DNA from: a virus
IMG/VR virus record: IMGVR_UViG_3300043015_000204
Coordinates: 1-25,829 of that record
Reading direction: 5' to 3' (one strand)
DNA: 25,829 bases
The notes under the pieces are model-generated. The model had not been told where the DNA came from and made no database searches. It was given only the letters and a program-made list of their open reading frames with translations. Shown piece by piece: positions 1 to 17,422 of this stretch. Positions within the stretch are counted from its first letter, which is position 1, and each line of letters begins with the position of its first letter. Both the position numbers and the translations under genes were made by a program.

Positions 1-223
1 AACTCACAAGAAATAGCACGTGATTGTTGCACGATTAGATGCACCATCTTGCGCGAATCCCTTGTTTCATTGGGCTTTACGTGGGCAGGGTTGCCATTTG
101 TTGCACACCCCCCTGTCCGACCATGCTTTTTCTGTGGTGTGAGCGACAGCCCACCCTATGGGGGGAAAGCGCGGCAACCAATATAGCGGTAGGGCGATCA
201 CAAGTTTGACCCAAAACCAACAG
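1..223. other. Non-coding right-end region, likely within or beside the terminal redundancy
   Basis: I find no convincing gene here in either direction; open frames are very short or are shadows of the adjacent repeats. The 9-mer TTGTTGCAC occurs twice (24-32 and 98-106). The stretch lies beyond the large terminase gene, the end-promoter and the repeat array, which is where T7-like genomes keep their direct terminal repeat. The assembled contig may therefore run through the terminal repeat here into the genome left end. The boundary of the terminal repeat cannot be placed from this window alone. Confidence 0.45.
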
Positions 224-415
224 GGTTGGGAGACCACTGGGACGGGTACACACTACAGCTCAAGCTCATGCTACCCACTACATGGTTGGGAGACCACTGG
301 GACGGGTACGAGCTGGTGGTCAAGCTCAAGCTACCTACTGCAGGTCAAGCTCAAGCTACCCACTACAGGTCAAGCTCAAGCTCAAGCTACCCACTACAGG
401 TCAAGCTCAAGCTAC
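224..415. repeat. Tandem direct repeat array, T7 SRR/SRL-like
   Basis: Two kinds of repeat are interleaved. A 26-bp unit beginning GGTTGGGAGACCACTGGG is perfectly repeated at 224-249 and 284-309. A 25-bp unit beginning GGTCAAGCTCAAGCTACC recurs head to tail at 318-342, 343-367, 368-398 (expanded by one extra CAAGCT hexamer) and 399-415 (truncated). A degenerate copy lies between the two 26-bp repeats, at about 255-282. Open frames crossing it have repeat-driven, low-complexity translations and no homologue I recognise, so I do not call them genes. In T7, short direct repeats flank the terminal redundancy at both ends; the position here, past the terminase genes, is equivalent. That role is inferred. 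Confidence 0.8.
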
Positions 416-450
416 AACCTAACCCTAGCCTCAACTTTCCTCTTGCTATA

Positions 451-493
451 TGCCCCTTGGAGGGGAGGATACCATCATCCCCGAGAAGGGGCA
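451..493. repeat. 43-bp interrupted palindrome (large hairpin) near the genome end
   Basis: The outer arms TGCCCCTT (451-458) and AAGGGGCA (486-493) are exact reverse complements. Inside a symmetrical 3x3 internal loop, a second stem pairs GGGGA (462-466) with TCCCC (478-482) around an 11-nt loop. There is no T-tract on either side, so it is not a classic rho-independent terminator. It lies between the large terminase stop and the direct repeats, so it could be a transcription stop, a concatemer-processing structure or a terminase recognition element. The structure is visible; the role is inferred. Confidence 0.65.
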
Positions 494-630
494 GGCACAG
501 CTTGGCCACAGCTACTACCTGTCCATGATGGTCTTCCACGAACACTCAGTGTGAGCACCTCGAGGACGGGGGTAGCTTCAGCCACAAGCTCAGGCCCCAC
601 CACTGCATAGCTATAGGTATAGCCCATTTA
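494..630. other. Non-coding spacer
   Basis: Spacer between the 43-bp palindrome and the promoter-like motif downstream of the large terminase gene. I see no gene, repeat or clear signal in it apart from a short AT-rich GCTATAGGTATAGC palindromic stretch near 607-620. Confidence 0.5.
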
Positions 631-648
631 CAATGGTGGAACCCAATT
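631..648 (-). promoter_or_regulatory. Phage RNA polymerase promoter, phiOR-like position
   Basis: The minus strand reads AATTGGGTTCCACCATTG, one base different from the copy upstream of the capsid gene. It lies 14 bp beyond the large terminase stop codon and points toward the genome end, where no gene follows within 600 bp. T7 and T3 have a promoter at exactly this place (phiOR), which is implicated in DNA packaging and replication at the right end. The motif is seen directly; promoter activity and the phiOR role are inferred from position and from resemblance to the SP6 promoter. Confidence 0.75.
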
Positions 649-662
649 ATTTCCTCATGTTA

Positions 663-2438
663 TCAGGTACTTGCCCAGACGCCTCCTGAGCCATCATTCA
701 TGGCCAGTTCCATCGCCTTTTCAGGGCTTGCACCCATAGCCAGAGCGTCCAAGCTGAGGCCTACTTCACCGTGCCACAGCGCCAGTTCAGCTTCGAGGAT
801 GCGGTCGCTACGTTCTGCAGCCTTCTGCTCCTCGTCCTGACCCATCTGCTCGACCCAGTAAGCCACGGCCATAGCCAGAGCGTCCACACGGTCGTCGTAT
901 GCGAGGGAGCCACGGTCCTTCGTCAGCCTGCTCATCTGGTACATGAGCTGACGCTTGAGCGCTTGCTCAGGCGGGTAGTCCCTGACGGACTGCTGGTCGT
1001 GTTTGATCACGCTCGGACAGATTACAAGCCTGTGCTGGTTCATGACAGGCTCGAGCGTGTCGATGATCCGCTTCTCCTTCTGCTGGTTGGAGCGGACCTC
1101 CTCGAGGGTCATGGGGTATCCGGCCTTCTTGAGGTGCGGAGTGAAGAGCTTGGTGAACATGCCGTCACCGAAGTTGCTCTCGATGATCCCGAGGTTGCAT
1201 TTGTTACGCTTGGCGATCTGTGCGAGGGCGTCCATGACGTGGTCGTCGTAGCCACCCTGCATACCACCAGCCTCCGTCACGAAGAGGAAGCCGTTGAGCA
1301 TCTTGACCACAGCGTAGGTGGTCTCGTCCTTGCCCCTACCGGAGGGGTCGATAGCGATTACGCTGCCTTCGTACTTCACCCAATCACCGGGCGTGGCCGC
1401 TGGGCGGTGATAGCGGTCGCCATTGAGGCCGACGCACTGGAGTTCCTGCAGTCTGTACTGAGGATCGGCAGACCAGATCAGGCGCTCAGGGGCTGTGTCC
1501 ACGTTGAGGGACGTGACGATGAGGTCGGACAGCTTGAGCGGATACTTGTCGGCGTCAGAGAGCCGGGTGTCGAGCATGAACTGCAGGGCAAAGCCTGAGC
1601 GTCCATAGGACATCTCACGTTCGAGCAGGTCGTCGTCGTCGAAGCGAGTAGGATCGACGGGATCACGGGGGGATTCACCGTCTTCCAGCATGGCCACGAT
1701 GCTCGGTGCCAACCGGTCACCGTAGCTCGTAGCGAGGACGTCCTTGGCAGGTAGGCGGGCAGGCCAGATACGCACAGCATACCCACGGTTGGGCAGCTCG
1801 TTGTACAGGCTCTCCTCGGTCTGCGGGGTGCCGAGGTATTTGATGCGTCCACCGGGCTTCAGCACGGCGTCGAACTCCTTCACCCGCTCTGCCAGCTTGT
1901 CGCGTTGGCCTTGGGTCTCGGAGTTGTTGGGGACCTCCACGTCGTCGCCGATGATCTCGTCAGCGCGGGAGCCAGTGAGCTGACCGAAGATGCCCACGGA
2001 TTTCACCGATGGGGAATGGTCTGCTTTGGCGGGGCCGACATCGAAGGCGATCATCGAGCTTCGTTGCTCAGGACGGGGCTGGAGGTGTTGGAGGATCGGC
2101 ATCTCACTGATGAGACGCTGCGTGAAGATCGAGAACTGGTCGGCCCGGTCCTTGGAGGCAGAGACCACCATGAACTTGAGCTGAGGGTTACGCAGAAGAC
2201 GCCAGCACACGTAGGCTGACGTGATCCAGCTCTTGCCGACACCACGGAACGCCTCGATGATCAGGCGGCGGGGTCCGTGTTGGAGGTATGTGGCGATGTC
2301 CATCTGAACCCACGTCGGGTCAGGGAGCAGGAGGTGCCGCCATACGAGTATCAGGAAGTACCGGAAGTCCTCGAAGATCTTCCAATCCTTCTCGGGGTAT
2401 TGTTCACGCCACCAAGGCGTGTCTTTCTCTAGGCTCAT
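663..2438 (-). CDS. Terminase large subunit (T7 gp19-like DNA packaging ATPase/nuclease)
   Basis: This motor protein pumps genome DNA into the procapsid through the portal and cuts the concatemer. It has 591 residues, close to T7 gp19 (586). The Walker A loop is FRGVGKS (residues 64-70), the Walker B acidic segment is EIIGDDVE (161-168), and a coupling motif GTPQTEES follows near 203-210. The C-terminal RNase H-like nuclease begins at AIDPSGRGKDET (362-373), whose Asp364 is the likely metal ligand. The ATG is preceded by AGGAG with a 5-nt spacer. In T7 the spanin genes 18.5/18.7 sit just upstream; here that slot is a 99-nt non-coding gap. It is the last gene before the genome end. Identity is firm. 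Confidence 0.96.
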   Translation of the reverse strand: MSLEKDTPWWREQYPEKDWKIFEDFRYFLILVWRHLLLPDPTWVQMDIATYLQHGPRRLIIEAFRGVGKSWITSAYVCWRLLRNPQLKFMVVSASKDRADQFSIFTQRLISEMPILQHLQPRPEQRSSMIAFDVGPAKADHSPSVKSVGIFGQLTGSRADEIIGDDVEVPNNSETQGQRDKLAERVKEFDAVLKPGGRIKYLGTPQTEESLYNELPNRGYAVRIWPARLPAKDVLATSYGDRLAPSIVAMLEDGESPRDPVDPTRFDDDDLLEREMSYGRSGFALQFMLDTRLSDADKYPLKLSDLIVTSLNVDTAPERLIWSADPQYRLQELQCVGLNGDRYHRPAATPGDWVKYEGSVIAIDPSGRGKDETTYAVVKMLNGFLFVTEAGGMQGGYDDHVMDALAQIAKRNKCNLGIIESNFGDGMFTKLFTPHLKKAGYPMTLEEVRSNQQKEKRIIDTLEPVMNQHRLVICPSVIKHDQQSVRDYPPEQALKRQLMYQMSRLTKDRGSLAYDDRVDALAMAVAYWVEQMGQDEEQKAAERSDRILEAELALWHGEVGLSLDALAMGASPEKAMELAMNDGSGGVWAST

Positions 2439-3437: not shown

Positions 3438-4826
3438 TTACCGTAGTTCAGACCAGATGTTCATCGCGTCGGTGCAGTCGATCCGGTAGTACCACCCGTC
3501 AGGTACGATGAACTGGATGTTGGTCAGCGTTCCGGGGTCTCCGACGATTGCCTGCACCATCGAGCCTGTGCTTGCGCCAATGTACCCAGACATGCTGGTG
3601 TTTGCGGTTGAGTGGCGGGAGTGAATCCAGATCGGGCGTCCAGTGGTGTTCTGGTAGTTCGTACCATACGAGCGCGATCCCTCGAGGCGCTGCCAAGTCT
3701 GACCATACCCGAGACCATCTTGCTGGTCTGCGATGGCCTGTGCCACACGCTGCGGTGTCATGACCTTGGTGGTGCTTGTACCAGCTTCAGCTTCAGCCTG
3801 TGTCGCAACAGGGAGCCGAGCGATGTTGAGTGTACCGGCGTTCATGTACGAGGCGTTGAGGAAGTACCCACTGCCCTGTCCGTCGAGAAGATCGGCGTCG
3901 AGACCAGAACCTTGCCCGTCCACGGTCTTGATCTTTGCCAGCACGTCAGCAGCCGTGTATGAGGATGAGGGCAGCTTGCTGTCGATGTCAGATTGGAGAC
4001 CAGCCACAGTTGATGCGTCCAGCTCCCATGCGCCCATCAGCGTGGACGTCCCTACACCAGTGACCTGATAGACGTTGCCGTTGGAGTGGAAGTAGATGTC
4101 ACCCGTGTTTGCAGCATCAGCAGCGTAGGTTGTCAGGTTACTGCCGTATGCCACGTGTGGTCCCATAGGACCTACGTCACCTTGGGCACCCTGAGGGCCG
4201 GTAGCACCTGTCGGACCTTGAGGACCTGTCGGCCCCGCAGGGCCTGTGTCACCTTGGGGGCCTTGGATACCTTGAATGCCTTGCGGGCCAGTCGCACCAG
4301 TGTCGCCGGTAACACCTTGAGGACCTTGCGGGCCTTCATTGCCTTGCGGACCTTGGTTGCCTTGCGGGCCGATCAGCGCAGTCCATGCACCCCAGTTACC
4401 ATCAGGTTGCTTCCAACGGAGCGAGGATACAGGAGCGTTCGTTCCGTTGCCCCACTCGTAGTCTGGCGTCGGGCCTGACGGGCCGGTAGGGCCAGTAGGA
4501 CCCGTGGCACCTTGGACACCCTGAGGACCTTGAACGCCCTGAGGGCCGGTATCACCAGTGTCACCCTTCGGGCCTTGGATACCATCGGCACCTGTCGGGC
4601 CAACAGGGCCTTGGGCACCGTCCGCGCCATCCACACCATCAACACCCTTCTGAGCGATCTTCTGCCAGTAGGTCGTGTTGGAGGTCGGGATGCCAGCGGT
4701 AACGTTGATCTTCGCTACGAAAGTTTCACCCCCGTCAAACACAGCATCCTGTGCGACGTAGGCGGTAGCGGCAGACCACGTTCCTTTCCAGCCGATGCGT
4801 ACCCGGCCAATGTTGATTGCTGCCAT
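3438..4826 (-). CDS. Collagen-like distal tail fibre / receptor-binding protein
   Basis: 462 residues. Residues 1-60 form a small beta domain with the W..TAYVAQDAV..G.TFVA...IPTSNTTYW pattern of CBM5/12-type carbohydrate-binding modules. Then come 20 uninterrupted Gly-X-Y triplets (61-120), a 32-residue non-collagen island (121-152) and 24 more triplets (153-224). The C-terminal 240 residues hold the phage-fibre motifs GLDADLLDGQGSGYF (308-322) and AEAGTSTTKVMTPQRVAQAI (346-365). A tip domain begins near TWQRLEGSRSYGTNYQNTTG. It probably trimerises through the triple helix and displays a receptor-binding tip. Its start lies 1 nt after the stop of the T7-type fibre gene, suggesting coupled translation and a bipartite fibre. 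Confidence 0.85.
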   Translation of the reverse strand: MAAINIGRVRIGWKGTWSAATAYVAQDAVFDGGETFVAKINVTAGIPTSNTTYWQKIAQKGVDGVDGADGAQGPVGPTGADGIQGPKGDTGDTGPQGVQGPQGVQGATGPTGPTGPSGPTPDYEWGNGTNAPVSSLRWKQPDGNWGAWTALIGPQGNQGPQGNEGPQGPQGVTGDTGATGPQGIQGIQGPQGDTGPAGPTGPQGPTGATGPQGAQGDVGPMGPHVAYGSNLTTYAADAANTGDIYFHSNGNVYQVTGVGTSTLMGAWELDASTVAGLQSDIDSKLPSSSYTAADVLAKIKTVDGQGSGLDADLLDGQGSGYFLNASYMNAGTLNIARLPVATQAEAEAGTSTTKVMTPQRVAQAIADQQDGLGYGQTWQRLEGSRSYGTNYQNTTGRPIWIHSRHSTANTSMSGYIGASTGSMVQAIVGDPGTLTNIQFIVPDGWYYRIDCTDAMNIWSELR

Positions 4827-4827
4827 G

Positions 4828-5982
4828 TTATGTCACCGTTGTTACGTGGAGAAAACCATCTGCGTCGATGGTGAAGTCGTTATCGTTTGCTGTGCCGTAG
4901 TACTCGATCATCAGCTCCCCCTCGTCGGAGAGGTAGAAGCGACCGAAAGCTAGGCCAAGAGGGGTGGCACCCATGGGACCTTGGTCACCAGTGGGGCCTT
5001 TGTCTCCGGTATCTCCGGCTGGCCCCTGAGGGCCGGTGAGGCCAGTGGGACCTTGGATACCTTGGGGACCAGCGGGACCTGTTGGGCCTTGTGGTCCTGT
5101 TGCTCCGGTTGGGCCAGTAGCTCCGGTCGGACCTTGGAGACCTGTTGGGCCTTGTGGACCCTGAGGCCCTACCGCACCTTGGTCACCAGTCAGGCCAATG
5201 GGACCTTGTACGCCCTCAGGGCCGCGATCACCTTGGTCACCCTTTGGTCCTTGCAAGCCGGTCGGGCCTTGGAGACCTTGGGGACCAGCAGGTCCTAGAC
5301 CACCTGTCGGACCCATAGGGCCTTGAGGACCTACCGGACCTTCCGGGCCTGTCGGGCCAGCGGGACCTGTTGGGCCAGCGGGTCCTTCAGCACCGGTGCC
5401 GCCCTGCGGGCCTTCGGACAGGTAGAAGTCCATGACGCCAGTGTTCGGGTTGTACGTGACGTAACCAGCCTGTCCGTACGGGATGCGGTGCATCACCGTC
5501 TGGATCGCGTTGTACTGTGACGCCAGCGCTTCAACCTGTTGGAGGTATGAGTTACCAGCGTTCTGCACCCAGTCGAGGGTGACCACGTCACTGCCGTTTA
5601 CAGGTGTTGCACCGTTGATGAGCTTCCGCCCTTGCAGGTCGAACACGCCGTTTTCCAGCCGGAGGGTTTCCCCCATGTCGTCTGCAGCTTCCTGAGCGAT
5701 GAATGCCCCGTGACGTGCGACGGTGTCGAGATCCTCCTCGCGGAGAGCCACACCATCAGCGAAGTCCACGATCTGATCCCGAGGGGTTTCTCGGTAGATA
5801 CGAACAACAGCTCCATTCGCAGGAGCTGGGCTGATGGAAACGGTTGAGGCGTTGTTCCAAGTGAACGCAGCCTCCGCGCCATCCACTGTCACGAAGATGT
5901 GCGCCTTGTCGATGTAGCCGAAGTTGAAAGAGAACAGGGTCTTGGACCCGTCCCCCGTAAGATCGACGAAGGATGTTGCCAT
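4828..5982 (-). CDS. Tail fibre with T7 gp17-type N-terminus and collagen stalk
   Basis: 384 residues. Residues 1 to about 135 match the T7 gp17 N-terminal tail-attachment domain: [21 protein letters not shown] is its start (seen at 3-23), followed by [20 protein letters not shown] and a helical region. Residues 191-340 are 50 uninterrupted Gly-X-Y triplets, about 43 nm if a standard collagen triple helix. The last 44 residues are a small beta-like cap. T7 gp17 has instead a beta-structured shaft and tip of similar total reach. The product probably anchors the fibre to the tail, with receptor binding handed to the next gene product. A GC hairpin carrying GGAGGG precedes the ATG by about 14 nt. 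Confidence 0.88.
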
Positions 5983-6031: not shown

Positions 6032-9000
6032 TTACTGTGAGAGCGTGGACAGGCTGTCGAAGACCGACGTGCCTTCCTGAGGCTGTTGATCAGCGATAGC
6101 TGCAACACCAGAGTAAGCACCCCGGCGGGCAGCCATGGACTCACGACGAGCCTCGGTGATCGACTGCCGCAGTTCGGCGTTCTCACGGATGAGAGCCTCA
6201 CGTGCAGCTCGGCGGTAGCCTGCGATCACGCGCTGGACAGCCACGATCCGCCTGTTGTCAGACGGCTCATCAGTGTCAGCGAAACGCTCACGCCCAATGT
6301 CGTAGCCCTGTGTCCCCATGAGGTGCTCGAGGGCTTGGTACATCGTGCGGCGGCCAATGCGTACCGTACCATGCAGCTCGAGCAGGCGCTCGTACTGGTG
6401 GCCTGTAAGCTCCACACCTTCCACTGTCCGCGTAGGAGAGGAGAAGTTGTAGCCAAGGCCTGCAAGCTCATCGAGAACCGTGTCAGGTTCCCAATCGCCC
6501 TGCATGAACGGATTGCCCATGGACATGAACGCAGCACCAATCGGGTTAGCCATGTCGGACCCCCACCCTGCCGGGTAGACGATGGGCTGGCCGGTGACCC
6601 AAGAACGCCGCGCGGGCAGGTTCTCAGAGTAGCCGGGGACAGTGTTCATGACTGCATCCACGATGGACCGCACCTCACGCATCACAGGATCGTCCTGCTT
6701 GCGGCCTTCACGCATGAGCGCAGAGTACGGCAACATGGACGCCGAGAGGTTGGCGAAGTACCGGCCTGCGTAACGCTCAGGATCGCTGAACGCTTCAACA
6801 GCGTCGGTGATACCCTGCAGGTAGGTCTGCGAGGCGACGTTGTTGGCCAGAGCCACTGTTGCGGCCAGCGCGATGTCACCCATGGTCTGGTCGTCCACCT
6901 GCCCCGAGATAGCTGCAATGTCTGCCGCCAGTCCGAAGAACATGGAGAACGGCGCAAGACGGCGGTATTCCGTGTAGGTACGGCTGCCATCAGGGTTCTC
7001 CGTGACCACGCTGTATGGACGCCAGCCAGTTTCGAGCAGACGCGCACGTGCTGCAGGGTCGGATGGACCACTACCAGTGATCTTCCCTTCCATCGCAGCC
7101 ATCCCCGCTGCCCCCCAGATCATGGCACCCGTGCTCATCTTACCAATCGCACTTGCTCTGCGCCGAGGATCACCGCTGCGGATGTCGTCCATGAAGTTCT
7201 TACTCAGGAACTGAACACCGGGAGTACGCTGTACACCAGCCACGATGATGTTCGTCGGTGTACGCACGAACGGCATCAACAGCTTGAGACCGGGATGGCG
7301 GTTGGTTGCCATCTGGATGTCCCGAGAGAGGCTGCCCTTGCGTAGCTCCTGCGTGAACGTGGCCTCACGGGCGTGGTCGAGACCCGCCTGAGAGGTCGCA
7401 CTGCCATGCCGGTCGAACGCCTTTTCCATACGGTCAGCGACGTATCTCGCAGCACGGTCACGCGGCAGCTTGCCACTTGCTACAAGGTCACCCGCCTCAG
7501 TCGTGAGACGTGCGTAGACCTCAGCTCGGTAGTTCATCTGCTTGAACAGCTCGTCGCTGGCCATGAGCAGACGGGAGGGTGCCCGGATCACAGCGCCCAT
7601 ACCGTTGACGATGTTGTCGAGGACAGGGTTGCCGGTGTTGATGGCGATGGCGTGGTTCACAATACCGTTCGCCTCAAGGATCGCAGCCTCAGGATCGAGG
7701 ATGTTGCGCCCCTCGCGGAGGGAGGTACGGAAAGCTCGGAAGCTCTCGCGCATAGCGTTGGACATACCCGCGAACATGCGGATACCTTCCCTCGCCGTAC
7801 GTAGATCACCACTTACGAGACCACCGAGGACACGTTCGGACGGCAGCAGGAGCATGTTGCCTGCGTTCGAGAGCATGTTGACGATGTGCGTCTTCGGGCC
7901 AGAGAGAAGCCCGTTGATCCTGATCTCGTTGAGCCAGCCCATTGGACCGTGGCGAGACGTTTCAGCGAGACGGAGGATACGGCCTGCGCTGCCACCGTTG
8001 GCACGTACAGCCCGAGCCAAAGCACGGATCGCGTCGGGACCACCAGCACTGTCGATGTTTGCCTGCATCTGGCGAAGGATGTCGGCGTCGGCAAGCTGCT
8101 GTCCGGTGATACCATCCACAGTGCGTATACGACCAGCCGCAGTTGTCTGGGCTGCCCCGGTGATCACAGACCGCAGGTTAGCAGAGGTCTCCACCAGCCG
8201 CGCCTGATACTGCAGGAACCGGGTCATATCTGCTTCCGACGCATTCGGGCTGTCTACCCGATACGCCAACTGCTCGATCTCACGGGCCAGCGATTGCACA
8301 AGCTCCTTGCCAGCAACCACAATGGCCTGCTGGTGGTGAGCATCCTGAGCCATACGCGCAAGGTTTGCGTCAAGATCACCCGGAGCAATCTCAAGCTCAC
8401 GCTCAAGGAAGTTCCGTGCGCCTGCTGTCATAGCCTCGAACGTAGTACTTTCGCGTACGCCAAAGGCACGGATGTCCTCGGCTGCCATCTCAATCACTTC
8501 ACGGGCCGACACGTCGGAGTCCATGTAGTTCTGATTGAAGACGGTGCCTTCAAGCTGCCGATATGGATCAGGCTGGGACCCGCCACGCTGGAGTGCAACC
8601 TCACGCTGGAGAGCTGCGGTGAGTCCTTCGTGGTTGACAGGTCCTGTGGGCTGTTCGTCAGCCGCGTTGGACGCTGCGGTTACAGCTTCTGCCTCCCCTT
8701 CAGCGGTAGCCTGTGCGGCAGCCTGTGCTTCACCCTCAGCGGCAGCAGCGGTGTCTCGGGGGGCTACCCCGTCCACATGTACTTCCTCGCCCTGAGCGTT
8801 GATCACACGGCGTCCTGCGTGGGCCTGCGTAGGTGCAGGGAGATCACCAGCGTCGATCTGCTGGAGCCACTCACCAAGCTGCGGGTTCTCTTCCATGATC
8901 TGGCCGACAGCGTCGTTCATGAAGTTAGCTGCAGCTTCGTCACCTTCGGTCGCCCGCATGTTACGCGCGGTGCGGAAGGATCGGAACATAAGGAACACAG

Positions 9001-9796: not shown

Positions 9797-11996
9797 TGAT
9801 GATCAATCCTTCCAGAGGGATGTTGTACTCAGCCGCATACTCAGCCGGGGTGATGCCCAGCTCCTGTGCGGTTAGCTGAAGCGTCCTCAGACCTGCTGGT
9901 GTGGACATGAAGTCGATTAATGGTTGCGGGATACTGCCGTACTGACCAGCCACCATCCCACTCGGGTTGGTAGCAGGTGCGGGTGCAGGCGCAGGCGCGG
10001 GTTCTGGAGTTGGCTCAAACTCGGGTACAGTCCGTCCCGGTATTTGGCCAACAGCAGTTGATGCCACGCCTCCGAACATTCCTTCAGGTGGCTGGAACTC
10101 CGCAGAGTTCAGTATCTCGTTCTGTACTCCGCGCATGTGGAGACGGAACGCACGCTGTGAAACCTCTGGGTTAGCGTCGAGGAACGCATATGCTTCATCT
10201 TGCATCAACTGACGTGCAGTCAACCCAACCTCTTCACCTCCAGATACCGATCCTGAGAGGTCACGTACCCCGAAGCGATCCGAGATGATGTTCTCGACAT
10301 TGTCGAAGTAGCGGACCACGTCCCGGTCACCGAAGTAGCCGGAGTTACGCTGGCGCGAGGCCAGATCGTCCATCAGACCGCCGACATCCGAAGGTGCCAG
10401 CAGCTCGTTCGCTGCCGCCGTAGCGATTGCTTGTTCCACAGCGGAGTAGTCACCGTCAGATGCTGCACGTCCAACTTGCAGACGTAGGTCCGTATAGACG
10501 TCAGGGTCTGTACGCACGTTCACCTGTCGGTCGAGCATGGTTTCCTGCAAGGCGAGAAGAGTTGTCGCAGCGCCGGGGTTACCGGCATTACGTGCAGCCG
10601 TTACGAAGTCTTCGATGTCAGCCGAAGGGTCAGACATGAGCGTTGTCAGGCCATCCTGCAATGCAAGGCGTCCTGCCTCTTCACGGGCCTGCTCTTCCAG
10701 TGTGTGCTGACGGCGGTCGCGTTCCCAAAGACGGTCGAGGATTCGATCCTCAGCGTTGGCCCGGTCTTCACGAACCCACCCGATGTTGCCGAGAGGGCCG
10801 TTGCCGGTCGTCAGCTGATCGAGAACGTCGAGCATACTCGGGTCGAGGCTGTCCAGAGCTGCTCCGATTACAGCCTGAACGACGGTCTCATTGGCTTGCC
10901 GTGGGGCCATGCCGTTTGAGATTACACTGTCCAGCATCGCCTGCATACGCGGAGCGTTGGTCGTGTACGACGTGTAGGTCGCGGACGCTTCCGGGTACTC
11001 AGACTGAGCCTCAGGGCCTGCAGCGACGTAGCGGTGCATGGCCTCAGTTCCGTGCTCAAGCGCAACAGCCCGAAGACCGTTGCGAGAGTACGACATGTCA
11101 GTGTAGCCACGGGCGTTGATCGTCTCATCGACGACAGCGATAGCCGCAGCTCCAACCAGCTCACCACCGAACGGCATACCTGCCACATCCTCAGCGGTGT
11201 AGCTCGTGCCGTTCATCGCGTTGTAGGCTGTCAGGCTCTCCTCGGAGACGCCGGTCTGGATCGAGAACTCACCACGTGCCGCAGAGAAGACTGATGCGAA
11301 CTCTTCGGCTGGCGTCTCGCCTTCCGGGTCCTCGTTGAGGAGCATACCGATCCCGGCAGACAGCTCGTCCCGATAGTCCACCGACCGGCCACGTAGCTGT
11401 TGCTGCGTGTGGTAGGATGCCATCGAGTCGATAGCTTGGTTTGCGTATGGTGTGAACGTCTCTGTCAGCAGGACAGGGTCCAACTGCTCCATACCAAACT
11501 GGGCCTGATAGGCAGCCGTCTGTTGGTTGATCCATTGCTGGACAGCACCTGCGTCCCCGCTCGGGGGAGACTGGCGGTACTGGGCCATCAGGTAGTCGTT
11601 GAGACCCATGCCGAGGCGGTTGACCCGCTGACGCAGAAGCCCTCGCTGGAAGTGTGGAGAAGCTGCCGCTAGTTCATCGGCGTAGCTGGTTCCGTTCTCT
11701 TCATCGTAACGCCGCTGGCGCTCGATCAGACCATTCCAACCGTCACGGTTCTCTTGGAGAGCGATACGCGGATCGACACGGGCCTCAGCCTGTACGCCTG
11801 CGGCCTCTTCACGCTCGGCGAAGCGGCGGTTCTCTTCCTGCAAGAAGCCTTGGAGGGTCGGGTTGATGCTCTGGAGCTGACGCGCCAGCTCGAGCATTGG
11901 GGACGGAGCCGGGTGCTGGTACTGAGGCGCGACGTAGCGGCTGACCGGAGACGCGACCGCAGTCAAGCTCGGATCAGGTGCAATACGTTGGGACAT
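9789..11996 (-). CDS. Internal virion protein (T7 gp15-like core / ejection protein)
   Basis: 735 residues, close to T7 gp15 (747), and between the gp14-like and gp16-like genes as in T7. It is mostly helical and rich in Gln, Ala and Glu, with segments like LLRQRVNRLGMGLNDYLMAQ and many TPR-like helix pairs. Near the C-terminus a Pro-Ala linker (FEPTPEPAPAPAPAPATN) joins a roughly 60-residue helical tail (ITPAEYAAEYNIPLEGLIIND end). It would form the middle ring of the core above the portal and be ejected into the periplasm. The ATG has AGGA 7 nt upstream, straight after the gp14-like stop. No enzymatic motif is visible. Confidence 0.75.
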   Translation of the reverse strand: MSQRIAPDPSLTAVASPVSRYVAPQYQHPAPSPMLELARQLQSINPTLQGFLQEENRRFAEREEAAGVQAEARVDPRIALQENRDGWNGLIERQRRYDEENGTSYADELAAASPHFQRGLLRQRVNRLGMGLNDYLMAQYRQSPPSGDAGAVQQWINQQTAAYQAQFGMEQLDPVLLTETFTPYANQAIDSMASYHTQQQLRGRSVDYRDELSAGIGMLLNEDPEGETPAEEFASVFSAARGEFSIQTGVSEESLTAYNAMNGTSYTAEDVAGMPFGGELVGAAAIAVVDETINARGYTDMSYSRNGLRAVALEHGTEAMHRYVAAGPEAQSEYPEASATYTSYTTNAPRMQAMLDSVISNGMAPRQANETVVQAVIGAALDSLDPSMLDVLDQLTTGNGPLGNIGWVREDRANAEDRILDRLWERDRRQHTLEEQAREEAGRLALQDGLTTLMSDPSADIEDFVTAARNAGNPGAATTLLALQETMLDRQVNVRTDPDVYTDLRLQVGRAASDGDYSAVEQAIATAAANELLAPSDVGGLMDDLASRQRNSGYFGDRDVVRYFDNVENIISDRFGVRDLSGSVSGGEEVGLTARQLMQDEAYAFLDANPEVSQRAFRLHMRGVQNEILNSAEFQPPEGMFGGVASTAVGQIPGRTVPEFEPTPEPAPAPAPAPATNPSGMVAGQYGSIPQPLIDFMSTPAGLRTLQLTAQELGITPAEYAAEYNIPLEGLIIND

Positions 11997-12008
11997 TGGT
12001 GTTCCTCG

Positions 12009-12581
12009 TTAGAGCGTGTAGTTCCCCGAGATAGGGTCACGCGTGGAGAAGGTCTGGTAAGACTGCAAACCCTGAGCGCCGATACCGAGGAGTGTGCCAC
12101 CGAGGCCGGGGTAAACCACTGGTGTCATAGGCACAGAGTTGATCCTGCTGAGGGCCTGTGCCTCTATGCCTTCACGGCTGCGTTGGATTTGGTCCTCAGT
12201 GAAGCCAAGCTGTTGGAACTGGCTGTCGGCATAGTTCAGGTACTGCCTGTCGAAGTCTGACATCAGCATGTCCACAGACACGCCAGCCGCTTCACTCGAG
12301 GCATTCGCAGTTGATGCCGCCCGCATAGCAGCGAGACGGCTGTTGTTGACGTTCAGCGCAGTCGCTGAAGTCTCTTGTTGCTGCCGAGCGGCAAGGTCGT
12401 CGCTCTGGCGTAGCATGTCACTGATCGCTGCATCACGCGTGGCCTGTTGGTTCTGGACCTGTGCGTCATACTGGGCGTCAGCTTGCTGCTGTTGGCCGAC
12501 GTACTGCACAACCCCCGTCACCGCTGAGATGGCGAGGGAAGTGTAGAACATAGCAGCAGCGCCTAGTGCGGGTGGGCACAT
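12009..12581 (-). CDS. Internal virion protein (T7 gp14-like)
   Basis: 190 residues, compared with 196 in T7 gp14. A hydrophobic N-terminal helix (AMFYTSLAISAVTGVVQYVG, about residues 10-29) is followed by a long Gln/Ala-rich helical region (QQQQADAQYDAQVQNQQATR) and a segment ASSEAAGVSVDMLMSDFDRQ that is typical of the family. It is ejected first and inserts in the outer membrane to start the DNA channel. The start at 12581 has AGGAGC about 5 nt upstream and overlaps the gp13-like gene by 19 nt. The C-terminal residues beyond about 150 are variable and uncharacterised. Confidence 0.82.
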   Translation of the reverse strand: MCPPALGAAAMFYTSLAISAVTGVVQYVGQQQQADAQYDAQVQNQQATRDAAISDMLRQSDDLAARQQQETSATALNVNNSRLAAMRAASTANASSEAAGVSVDMLMSDFDRQYLNYADSQFQQLGFTEDQIQRSREGIEAQALSRINSVPMTPVVYPGLGGTLLGIGAQGLQSYQTFSTRDPISGNYTL

Positions 12582-13030
12582 GCTTTGCTCCTGATGAATG
12601 GGATGGCCCTGACTTTGCCGGGGCCGAAGTTGTCGATAGGTGTTCCGAAGGTGAACCCAAGGAACTTGAGCAGCCGCTTGTGGACGGTGTTGCTGTCGGT
12701 CACCATGTTGGACAGTGACACGTAGCGTGTGAGCTGATGCTCAAGCCAAGGCTTTGCTGCTGTCAGGTACTCACGTACATTCTGCTCTATCACAGGGGAC
12801 GACAAGAGCCAGATAGACCCGTGACCGCCTTCTGTAGGGACGATCCCCCACATGGCCCCCACCCTGCCCTCCTCGTCCAGACCTGTCATGCAGAGTTCGG
12901 AGTGGAAGAAGCCAAGGGTAAGTGCAGCCATCGGGTCCATACCAGCCAAGGCTTCCACCTCGTGCCGGTCTGCTTCACGCATGGTTCCCGATAGCTCGAC
13001 CACGTCAGCGGTCACGGATTTTCTGATCAT
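12563..13030 (-). CDS. T7 gp13-like internal protein with GNAT-like fold
   Basis: 155 residues (T7 gp13 has 138). The pattern SIWLLSS near the centre and SNTVHKRLLKFLGFTFG in the C-terminal third matches T7 gp13, whose equivalent segment reads GNTSHIRFLKTIGAVF. This is the acetyl-CoA-fold end of GNAT acyltransferases. The family is required in T7 for correct assembly of the internal proteins though it may not stay in the virion. Whether this copy is catalytic is unknown. I chose the ATG at 13030 (ATGA overlap with the gp12-like stop, GAAGGA upstream) over an in-frame ATG 36 nt earlier inside that gene. Confidence 0.72.
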   Translation of the reverse strand: MIRKSVTADVVELSGTMREADRHEVEALAGMDPMAALTLGFFHSELCMTGLDEEGRVGAMWGIVPTEGGHGSIWLLSSPVIEQNVREYLTAAKPWLEHQLTRYVSLSNMVTDSNTVHKRLLKFLGFTFGTPIDNFGPGKVRAIPFIRSKACAHPH

Positions 13031-15543
13031 ATCACTGATGTCCTTCGCTCGAACCTGCCCTCCCACTCAGCACCTGTCAGGTTGCTCGGGAGGAAACTGT
13101 CGTTGATCACTGTGATCCGTGCGTTCTTGGCGTTTGCGTTGACACGGAACGAGAAGGTCCCGTCCTCCACGTCGCGGCTGCCTACCACCGCAGAGGGTGT
13201 GCCAAGGATTTGCCCGGTGTGGGTGTACGTGTAGGTCTGGCCATTGCCTGCCTCTACTTCCACTTTGAAGTATCCTGTCTCAGCGAAGCTCAGATGGAAC
13301 TTGTGCAGTTGCAGGCGACCGGCGATTACCGATGCCTGTCCACCGGATGCGACCGAAGTCTTTAGCACCGGCTTGGAGAACTCGTAGGTGAACCTGTACG
13401 GCAGGCCTACGTAGAAGAGAGACGAAGAAAGATCACCCTCGACCACGACGCTGTTGACGCCGATAGAGATGAACGTTGGGAACGTGTACTCTGTGAACTG
13501 TGGGTCCTGTGGGCGGAACACAATCTCAGGCGTCGTAGCCAGAGTGTACGGCAGCGTGATCGTGGACCTGTCGAGGATAGCGTCATACGCCACAGTTACC
13601 TGCGTCTGGTCGAGGCGGCGGTCGAGCCTGACGACAAAACGGCTGCCGTCTTCGGTGAGACCTTCACCCATATCGACGGACTCGAGGTACACACCGTCTT
13701 GGTACTGGGTCACGAAGTAGGTGGTGTCGTTGACCATACCTGCACTCAGGATTGAACACCCTGTGCTGAACTCCCAGACACTCCAGCTCGATTGAAGCTT
13801 CTGCTCCCCTCGCCAGTAGTACCTGTAGACGTACACCTTGTCACTCGCACCAGCCGACAACAGCAACATTGTGTCTGCCGAGGCCGATCCCGTAAGCTTG
13901 AAAACACCCGCAGGAATGTAGGTCGGCACGTGCTTCGTGAGGTCTGAAGCGTCCGTCGTCTCTGTCTCAGGGATTACGTAGTACTCCATCACAGCAGTGT
14001 GCTGTTTCCTGCGGGACGCGAAGAACACGGTCTTCCCGACAGGGATCGGAGCCGCGCCATCGTCGATCTCATAGGACGTCGTGTGCTTGACCTCAGGTGG
14101 CTCACTCGCAAGCAAAGTCTTCGCGTCAATCGAGTACTGAGTCTGACCAGAGAAAAGGATGATCTCCTTGCGGTAAGGCACAGCGTACTTCAGGTTAGCC
14201 ACGCTTGTCCCAGATGCTGACACGTCAATCGGACCATCGTCTAGGAGTGTCGCCACCGTCTCAGGGAAGAACGAGAACAGCGCATTCGTGCGGGACATCA
14301 CCACATTCCCTCCACTCAGGAAGCACATGCGGTTCGTCGCCAAGAAGACATCACTGATCTTCGCCCCAACGAAGCTCGGCCACGGGGCAGTCTCGGTGTC
14401 ACCAGCCTCGCGTTCTCCCCACTCGACTTGCTCAAGCGTGAAGTTCCCGTCAGGCTGTCTGATGAGAGAATGGGGCATCGTTGAAGCGTCGAGCTTGTAC
14501 TCAACCCCCGGTCCTACAGTTTCAACCCAGACCCCTGCGTCCATGCCGGGACCACCGTTGTTGGCCTCGAACCTGAGGAAGTAGTCGTCGACATCAGACA
14601 CGTCGTCGCCGAAGACCTTAACGATGTATCCATGCGGGGCGACAACAGGAAGCTCAGAGAAGCGTTGGATTTTGCCGGGGACAGCGCGGGTGTGGATACC
14701 GCCAGAGCTGTCCGTGAACTCGATGTCGAACGGCGTACCGTCATTACGTTTCACGCTGATCACAGGAGAGTAGACATCCACAGTGTAGTCGGGGTGTAAC
14801 TCTGCGGCGAGGACAGCGCCTATCTTATCCACCACCTCATCGACAGAGACCTTCGGCTTGTCGGCAGTTGCGCTGTCAAGCTGTTGTGCCTCCCAAGCCT
14901 GCTCCCTGATCGCCTGCGGTGCCTCTGGCATGAAGTCAACAGGGATAGGCTCATCAGTACCTTCAGTCGTGTCGGTCGGGGCAGGTACGCTGAAGGCATC
15001 CGCAGCATCACCGTAAGCGTCGTCCGTGGTGTAGACGATGATGTCTTGTCCATCGACACGCACGGTGTAGGTGACGTCGTAGTTGACAGAGCGCACGAAC
15101 AGGAGCGACTGCGCCGGGGTGGCGGGCGTCAGCTCTGGCAACTTGCCAACGACTGCTTCCTTGTTCACGATGAACGTGTTGTCAGCGATTGTCAGAGCGC
15201 GGATGTCACTCTCCGGTGAGACGCCTGTGATATAGCCTGCGCCGTCTGGGTATGTGACCGTGCGCTCTGTCCCGTCGAGGTCGAACACTTTGATCGAACC
15301 GTCGAACACCATGGCGACGTAGCGCTCGGTTGTGTCGCGGTTGATCAAGTGGGTGTACGCAGCCCCAGCTTGGCCATCGACGATCTTTGCGATGTGCTTG
15401 AGAGGCTGTCGTTTGTTCGTCCCCTCCACGATGGAGGAGGAGCCGTTCACCTGAACTTCTGCCTGTGAGGGCAGACGCATGGCCAGAGCTTGCTGGCTCA
15501 CGCCGTTCATCAGGTTCGGCATCTGTTCAGATACAAGGGGCAT
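13027..15543 (-). CDS. Tail tubular protein B / nozzle (T7 gp12-like)
   Basis: 838 residues, close to T7 gp12 (794). The start MPLVSEQMPNLMNGVSQQAL carries the hallmark NLxNGVSQQ of the family. The middle contains the typical SRTNALFSFFPETVATLLDDGPID and FSGQTQYSI segments, and the end has the beta-rich EFSKPVLKT and NGQTYTYTHTG strands. It forms the hexameric nozzle at the end of the tail and closes the DNA channel. The ATG follows GGAGG with 4 nt spacing and overlaps the gp11-like stop by one base (TAATG), so translation is coupled. Order gp11-gp12-gp13 is as in T7. Confidence 0.93.
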   Translation of the reverse strand: MPLVSEQMPNLMNGVSQQALAMRLPSQAEVQVNGSSSIVEGTNKRQPLKHIAKIVDGQAGAAYTHLINRDTTERYVAMVFDGSIKVFDLDGTERTVTYPDGAGYITGVSPESDIRALTIADNTFIVNKEAVVGKLPELTPATPAQSLLFVRSVNYDVTYTVRVDGQDIIVYTTDDAYGDAADAFSVPAPTDTTEGTDEPIPVDFMPEAPQAIREQAWEAQQLDSATADKPKVSVDEVVDKIGAVLAAELHPDYTVDVYSPVISVKRNDGTPFDIEFTDSSGGIHTRAVPGKIQRFSELPVVAPHGYIVKVFGDDVSDVDDYFLRFEANNGGPGMDAGVWVETVGPGVEYKLDASTMPHSLIRQPDGNFTLEQVEWGEREAGDTETAPWPSFVGAKISDVFLATNRMCFLSGGNVVMSRTNALFSFFPETVATLLDDGPIDVSASGTSVANLKYAVPYRKEIILFSGQTQYSIDAKTLLASEPPEVKHTTSYEIDDGAAPIPVGKTVFFASRRKQHTAVMEYYVIPETETTDASDLTKHVPTYIPAGVFKLTGSASADTMLLLSAGASDKVYVYRYYWRGEQKLQSSWSVWEFSTGCSILSAGMVNDTTYFVTQYQDGVYLESVDMGEGLTEDGSRFVVRLDRRLDQTQVTVAYDAILDRSTITLPYTLATTPEIVFRPQDPQFTEYTFPTFISIGVNSVVVEGDLSSSLFYVGLPYRFTYEFSKPVLKTSVASGGQASVIAGRLQLHKFHLSFAETGYFKVEVEAGNGQTYTYTHTGQILGTPSAVVGSRDVEDGTFSFRVNANAKNARITVINDSFLPSNLTGAEWEGRFERRTSVI

Positions 15544-17404: not shown

Positions 17405-17422
17405 CAATGGTGGAACCTAATT
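17405..17422 (-). promoter_or_regulatory. Phage RNA polymerase promoter upstream of the capsid gene
   Basis: The minus strand reads AATTAGGTTCCACCATTG, followed by CAAACAG. It overlaps the last codon of the o-spanin gene and points at the capsid gene 235 nt on. The SP6 promoter core is ATTTAGGTGACACTATAG: 13 of 18 positions are identical, including TTAGGT and CAC. It corresponds in place to T7 phi10, the strongest class III promoter. The polymerase gene is not in the window, so promoter activity is inferred. Confidence 0.8.

Follow-up and report, generated by a model that had tools for sequence, protein, structure and literature searches.

The IMG/VR virus record IMGVR_UViG_3300043015_000204 (25,829 bases), which we analyzed in full and will call the window, encodes part of a T7-like phage on its minus strand. 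We propose, with a probability of about 90%, that the 662 nt beyond its large terminase gene (TerL) are the right genome end of a T7-like phage of the Autographiviridae, and that a direct terminal repeat (DTR) starts there at a two-part element. Because TerL is on the minus strand, this block is read from 662 to 1. The proposal rests on sequence: which elements are present, how they are ordered, spaced, and conserved, and how well scoring models agree with known genome ends. The two-part element is the key feature of the block, and it was absent from the features listed in an earlier note on this DNA.

In the window, the element reads TTTTGGG-tcAAActTGTGAt (box A), then 29 nt, and then TTCCCCCC (box B). 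A block of this form (TTTnG..AAAAATSTGAG, 28-29 nt, and TTCCCCCC) is common to the terminal-repeat starts of the window, T7, Pseudomonas phage LUZ100, and Desulfovibrio phage ProddE, and phages whose ends are known carry the window's element where their repeat starts. We predict that the minus strand is cut between 191 and 190, so that 190 is the first base of the terminal repeat, with a tolerance of 1-3 nt because of a one-base ambiguity around CCCTA. The earlier note had suggested that the terminal repeat begins in or just after the block, and this fits the predicted start, which lies inside the block and just past a tandem array (Table 1).

Table 1. Features at the putative right end, in the order of transcription
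Feature	Position	Strand	Details
Large terminase (TerL) gene	663..2438	-	phrog_38, E 5.5e-121; right-end block starts at its stop codon
Putative phage RNA polymerase promoter, motif AATTGGGTTCCACCATTGTAA, phiOR-like position	628..648	-	21 bases; 15 nt beyond TerL stop
43-bp interrupted palindrome	451..493	-	hairpin: outer stem, 3x3 internal loop, inner stem
Tandem array, rich in AGCTTGAGCTTGACC	~220..421	-	units of 60, 25, and 31 nt; Tandem Repeats Finder (TRF)
Two-part terminal-repeat element	160..216	-	TTTT 216-213; box A 11-mer 207-197; box B TTCCCCCC 167-160; spacer 29 nt
First 190 nt of predicted DTR of ~236 bp	1..190	-	remainder beyond contig

Agreement with known genome ends

We scored sites with two models from which all reference phages were excluded. 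The smaller was derived from 23 sequences, all of them TerL-relative contigs, and the larger from 84 sequences, drawn from all contigs. (An earlier model had four reference phages in its training set and was rebuilt without them.) Both models pick the window site. Its score is 24.0, and the best score among 30 simulated windows was -0.2. The window has no second site of this kind.

Both models are exact on the first base of the deposited repeat for T7, T3, P-SSP7, Syn5, gh-1, and HTVC019P, and both are 1 nt off for phiKMV. The larger model is also exact for K1F and phiYeO3-12; with low scores, it is exact for LIMElight and off by 1 nt for LKA1, by 2 nt for JG068, and by 3 nt for SP6. In eight phages with deposited repeats, the repeat starts exactly 6 nt beyond box A. 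The ends of P-SSP7 were determined by Sanger sequencing (PMC3350473) and those of T3 by next-generation sequencing (PMC3896407). For Pf-10, whose record does not include the second repeat, the predicted start implies a repeat of 257 bp, and a 257-bp repeat was found by RAGE and Sanger sequencing (PMC8779105). The ends of all other phages were taken as deposited.

Conservation of the element across T7-like phages

Across T7-like phages, the consensus at this position after TerL is TTTnG..AAAAATSTGAGrGGGTA^T, with 28-29 nt from box A to TTCCCCCC. A strict pattern scan of viral contigs, which permitted a spacing of 26-31 between the boxes, gave at least 120 matches, while a control scan of viral contigs with the order of the boxes swapped gave none. 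Among 80 loci of the matches listed, the spacing is 28 in 45 and 29 in 32 (77/80); TerL is present in 74/80, and in about 70 the element is downstream of it, on the same strand and within 2.5 kb. Of the related contigs that include enough sequence, nearly all have a looser form of the element downstream of TerL. Furthermore, conservation in 89 non-redundant copies extends to columns that played no part in the selection, namely TTT (-19 to -17) and GGGTA^T (+1 to +6).

The window's end is itself an ordinary T7-type right end, which is a known kind of system. We are evenly divided as to a broader claim: that one two-part cleavage element is common to much of the Autographiviridae (coliphage T7 as well as marine, soil, and Desulfovibrio phages), and that, together with an ATCTGTT-like signal (see below), it gives both edges of the repeat from sequence alone, including in unfinished metagenomic genomes and in records that were deposited with the wrong ends. 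Our literature searches for the T7 left-edge sequence or for a family motif found no description, with the older T7/T3 packaging papers mostly outside their coverage; because of that gap, we put the odds that the two-part rule is undescribed at about even. If it is, then this would be a new family-wide rule for genome cutting in these phages. From the conserved mark, the ends of T7-like genomes can be predicted, in most cases to the base. With it, recognition by the terminase becomes open to testing in T7, through changes to either box or to the distance between them. Annotators could use it to place the true ends in many environmental T7-like genomes whose ends are not known, and to flag doubtful ones.

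The predicted right edge and length of the repeat

We compared the window to its relatives L002, L003, and L005, and to G001, a relative whose TerL is 98% identical to the window's. A DNA search with the window's end as the query matched only L002 and, weakly, L003. Exactly at +236 from the predicted cut, which is beyond the window, L002 has ATCTGTA and L003 has GTCTGTT, in surroundings that have diverged. Relative to the cut, such junction signals are found at -96 and +236 in L002 and, within 1.2 kb, only at +236 in L003. Since the signal is at +236 in both relatives, the DTR is probably about 236 bp long, and the window would hold its first 190 nt. The earlier note had also expected the contig to continue into the left end. 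This does not hold: the window is the whole record, it stops about 190 nt into the predicted repeat, and it contains a single copy of the predicted terminal-repeat sequence. Only L002 and L003 run on into the left end.

In T3, phiYeO3-12, Syn5, Pf-10, K1F, JG068, SP6, P-SSP7, gh-1, and HTVC019P, the right edge of the repeat coincides with ATCTGT(T/A) or a close variant, to within a few bases. The T7 repeat has this signal as well. No such signal was found at the right edge in phiKMV, LKA1, LIMElight, or LUZ100. TATCTGT occurs 130-400 nt past the cut in 13 of 73 contigs, which ranks first among 210 permutations of its letters (mean 2.0). ATCTGTT is a class II termination signal of T7 RNA polymerase, and it is known at the concatemer junction (PMC11617373).

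The putative promoter, the hairpin, and the arrays

The promoter motif after TerL belongs to a family with the consensus AATTrGGTTCCACCATTGCA. The window has four strong copies, all on the minus strand (at 648, 17422, 20910, and 23857), and the one at 17422 is upstream of the major capsid gene. G001 has nine copies, one of them directly upstream of the RNA polymerase gene. In both sequences, all high-scoring copies are on the transcribed strand, and the other strands have only weak matches. The motif is also found directly after TerL in L003, L005, and ProddE. Given its recurrence, strand, and position, we infer that AATTGGGTTCCACCATTGTAA is a promoter for the phage RNA polymerase, located between TerL and the repeat as phiOR is. 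The sole ATG open reading frame of 50 or more amino acids after the promoter (627-475) is disrupted in L002 by a 22-nt length difference, so there is no conserved gene for the promoter to serve. This agrees with the earlier note, which had described an isolated promoter without a downstream gene, followed by a palindrome and a tandem repeat array; these two were also recovered, as described below.

We rejected CTATAG, a T7-type core, as the promoter: unlike the AATTrGGTTCCACCATTGCA family, this string does not recur at gene starts. Scans of the L002 junction for E. coli-type promoters and terminators found nothing. Also, CCACCATTG in the promoter and CAGTGGTGG downstream of it form the left and right arms of a strong inverted repeat (644-591 on the minus strand; -30.2 kcal/mol, z = -5.3).

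As RNA, the palindrome folds with -24.7 kcal/mol (z = -2.4), and hairpins with identical geometry are found in L002 (z = -3.1) and L003 (z = -5.3). Between the window and L002, two positions have changed on both arms with pairing kept, and most letters of the L003 hairpin are different from the window's. The array comprises three rows in TRF, with periods of 60 (220-344, score 173), 25 (318-415, score 128), and 31 (345-421, score 138). Its copy number is strongly contracted in L002 relative to the window, within flanks that are about 93% identical. From the array down to base 1, the window is conserved non-coding sequence. Immediately beyond the predicted repeat there is, in L003, an array with a period of 11 (6.9 copies, 3960-4034) and, in L002, a pair of 24-nt copies (at 7942 and 7986). 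Together with the window's array, these place short repeats on both sides of the predicted repeat, as in T7.

Comparison with T7, T3, LUZ100, and ProddE

The order of the parts is the same as at the right end of T7 and T3 (gene 19, phiOR, short repeats, and a terminal repeat of 160 or 231 bp, respectively), a likeness that the earlier note had rightly seen. T7 and T3 also have the two-part element with a spacing of 29 and the CCCCC(C)ATAGG box. Their cut 6 nt past box A and their ATCTGTT-like signal at the far edge of the repeat correspond to what is predicted for the window's phage. In contrast to T7, the window's promoter has an unrelated sequence and its array has a different unit. The window also differs from T7 and T3 in having a hairpin between the promoter and the repeats, in lacking gene 19.5, and in its predicted repeat of about 236 bp, and the early region of its relative differs in having an integrase, a MarR-like regulator, and hammerhead ribozymes.

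LUZ100 has a 244-bp terminal repeat, and its TerL is about 60% identical to the window's. It has an isolated phage promoter directly after TerL (the mapped promoter phi8, in the same place as the window's promoter), CTCAAG-rich short repeats before the terminal repeat, and boxes A and B with a spacing of 29; like the window's relative, it encodes a MarR-like regulator and an integrase. Its promoter has a different sequence, CAATTACCACACAG, and the start of its repeat is annotated 12 nt downstream of where we predict the cut. ProddE, which has a predicted terminal repeat of 271 bp, has the window's promoter core, AATTAGGTTCCACC, after TerL and boxes with nearly the same letters as the window's (GGTTTTGGGTgAAAaaTGTGAa and TTCCCCCCATAG). 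But it infects a different host group, it has an AT-rich stretch between TerL and the element, and its annotated start is 8 nt past the predicted cut.

A proposed mechanism

During T7-type replication, genomes are joined head to tail via the shared terminal repeat. In T7, transcription toward the junction, pausing of the polymerase there, and cutting by the terminase leave the repeat at both ends. The anatomy of the window matches these established steps, with TerL, a phage promoter, repeats, and the terminal repeat in that order. We propose that transcription by the phage RNA polymerase would begin at 648, in the isolated promoter, and pass through the hairpin and the array, both non-coding, into the repeat. 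Recognition of the two-part element (216-160) by the terminase would lead to a cut between 191 and 190, forming the left edge of the DTR. The right edge would be cut at the ATCTGTT-like signal about 236 nt downstream, which is a pause site for T7 RNA polymerase. The terminase itself would presumably read boxes A and B, and pausing of the polymerase would presumably assist cutting in this phage. A candidate role for the hairpin and the array is slowing or stopping transcription.

Alternative explanations

Several observations weigh against a DTR that starts at the element. The physical ends are predicted from the letters, and the right edge is deduced from relatives only. Box A has diverged in the window (AAACTTGTGAT, 8/11). 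Among the reference phages, SP6 and LIMElight score below background and are both missed by the smaller model, and the Pf-10 site has a low score that is barely above the next-best site. The model disagrees with the annotation of LUZ100 and with the start in ProddE (which was annotated as predicted) by the 12 and 8 nt given above, and the deposited ends of RHEph01 and phiIBB-PF7A are far from the model sites.

These offsets, as well as the tandem arrays that adjoin the repeat in T7, could be explained by a real terminal repeat with its start at another place in the block (for instance, at the tandem array), the element being only a nearby site for binding or pausing. We consider this improbable, given the constant distance of 6 nt from box A to the start in eight phages; also, the length of the array varies even between close relatives, and the element does not vary in this way.

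It is less probable still that the phage packages by the headful mechanism from a pac site, which would be the element, and has circularly permuted genomes. The L002 contig does cross the junction unbroken, as a permuted genome also would, but repeats collapse in assemblies, so phages with fixed ends assemble through the junction as well. For this reason, P-SSP7 was first called circularly permuted, and it was later shown to have 206-bp repeats (PMC3350473). Also, both TerL and the element are those of fixed-end phages. Finally, we give next to no weight to the block being the attP of a temperate phage or a replication origin, instead of a packaging end, as the integrase of L002 and a tRNA-like sequence (the usual partner of attP) are about 5-6 kb away, and T7 and T3, which lack an integrase, have the element just the same.

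The comparison also turned up records whose deposited ends disagree with the element: phiIBB-PF7A (predicted repeat at about 38271-38544), CRP-125 (OR420743; predicted start at 37452), and RHEph01 (NC_047738; 42236). The cut in these records may be misplaced, as in the first record of P-SSP7. In phiIBB-PF7A (NC_015264), a weak model site at 38271 and ATCTGT at 38545 enclose about 274 bp; its congener Pf-10 has a repeat of similar length, which casts doubt on the 985 bp deposited for phiIBB-PF7A. The 512-bp identity between the deposited ends of RHEph01 is away from the element, and we did not use it as support. The records of CRP-125, RHEph21, TRX32-1, and Lo5R7ANS contain no terminal repeat.

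Gene content and early region

The minus strand of the window encodes, in order, a DNA polymerase fragment, thymidylate synthase, exonuclease, ribonucleotide reductase, connector, scaffold, major capsid, tail tubes, internal virion proteins, fibres, the small terminase (TerS), and TerL. The matches to TerL are T7-like, and the late genes follow a T7-like order that closes with TerS-TerL, as at an end in the Autographiviridae. A single-subunit RNA polymerase (929 amino acids; RNA_pol, E 7.5e-108) is encoded by L002, in a part of the genome that is absent from the window. Directly before this gene, L002 encodes a MarR-like regulator, a tyrosine integrase, and a tRNA-like sequence (11870-13765), as in LUZ100, which suggests that the phage may be temperate.

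The early regions of L002 (8584-8671 and 9453-9521) and L003 (~4490-4578 and ~5298-5366) each contain two hammerhead ribozymes. One is of type II (Rfam RF02276; 46.9 and 45.9 bits). The other, which is directly before the first early gene, is type III-like, based on a pattern match in L002 (stems of 9, 6, and 4 bp) and a core that we matched by eye in L003. No hammerheads were found in the window or in the other related loci that we scanned. A possible role of these ribozymes is in the processing of early mRNA, for which T7 has RNase III sites.

In L002 (8240-8560) and L003 (~4260-4520), the region from the predicted repeat to the first early gene also includes a GC-rich non-coding stretch that appears to be structured. 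An Rfam search with these stretches gave no match, and GCAGGGG..CCGCCCGAAG.CATA is common to both of them.
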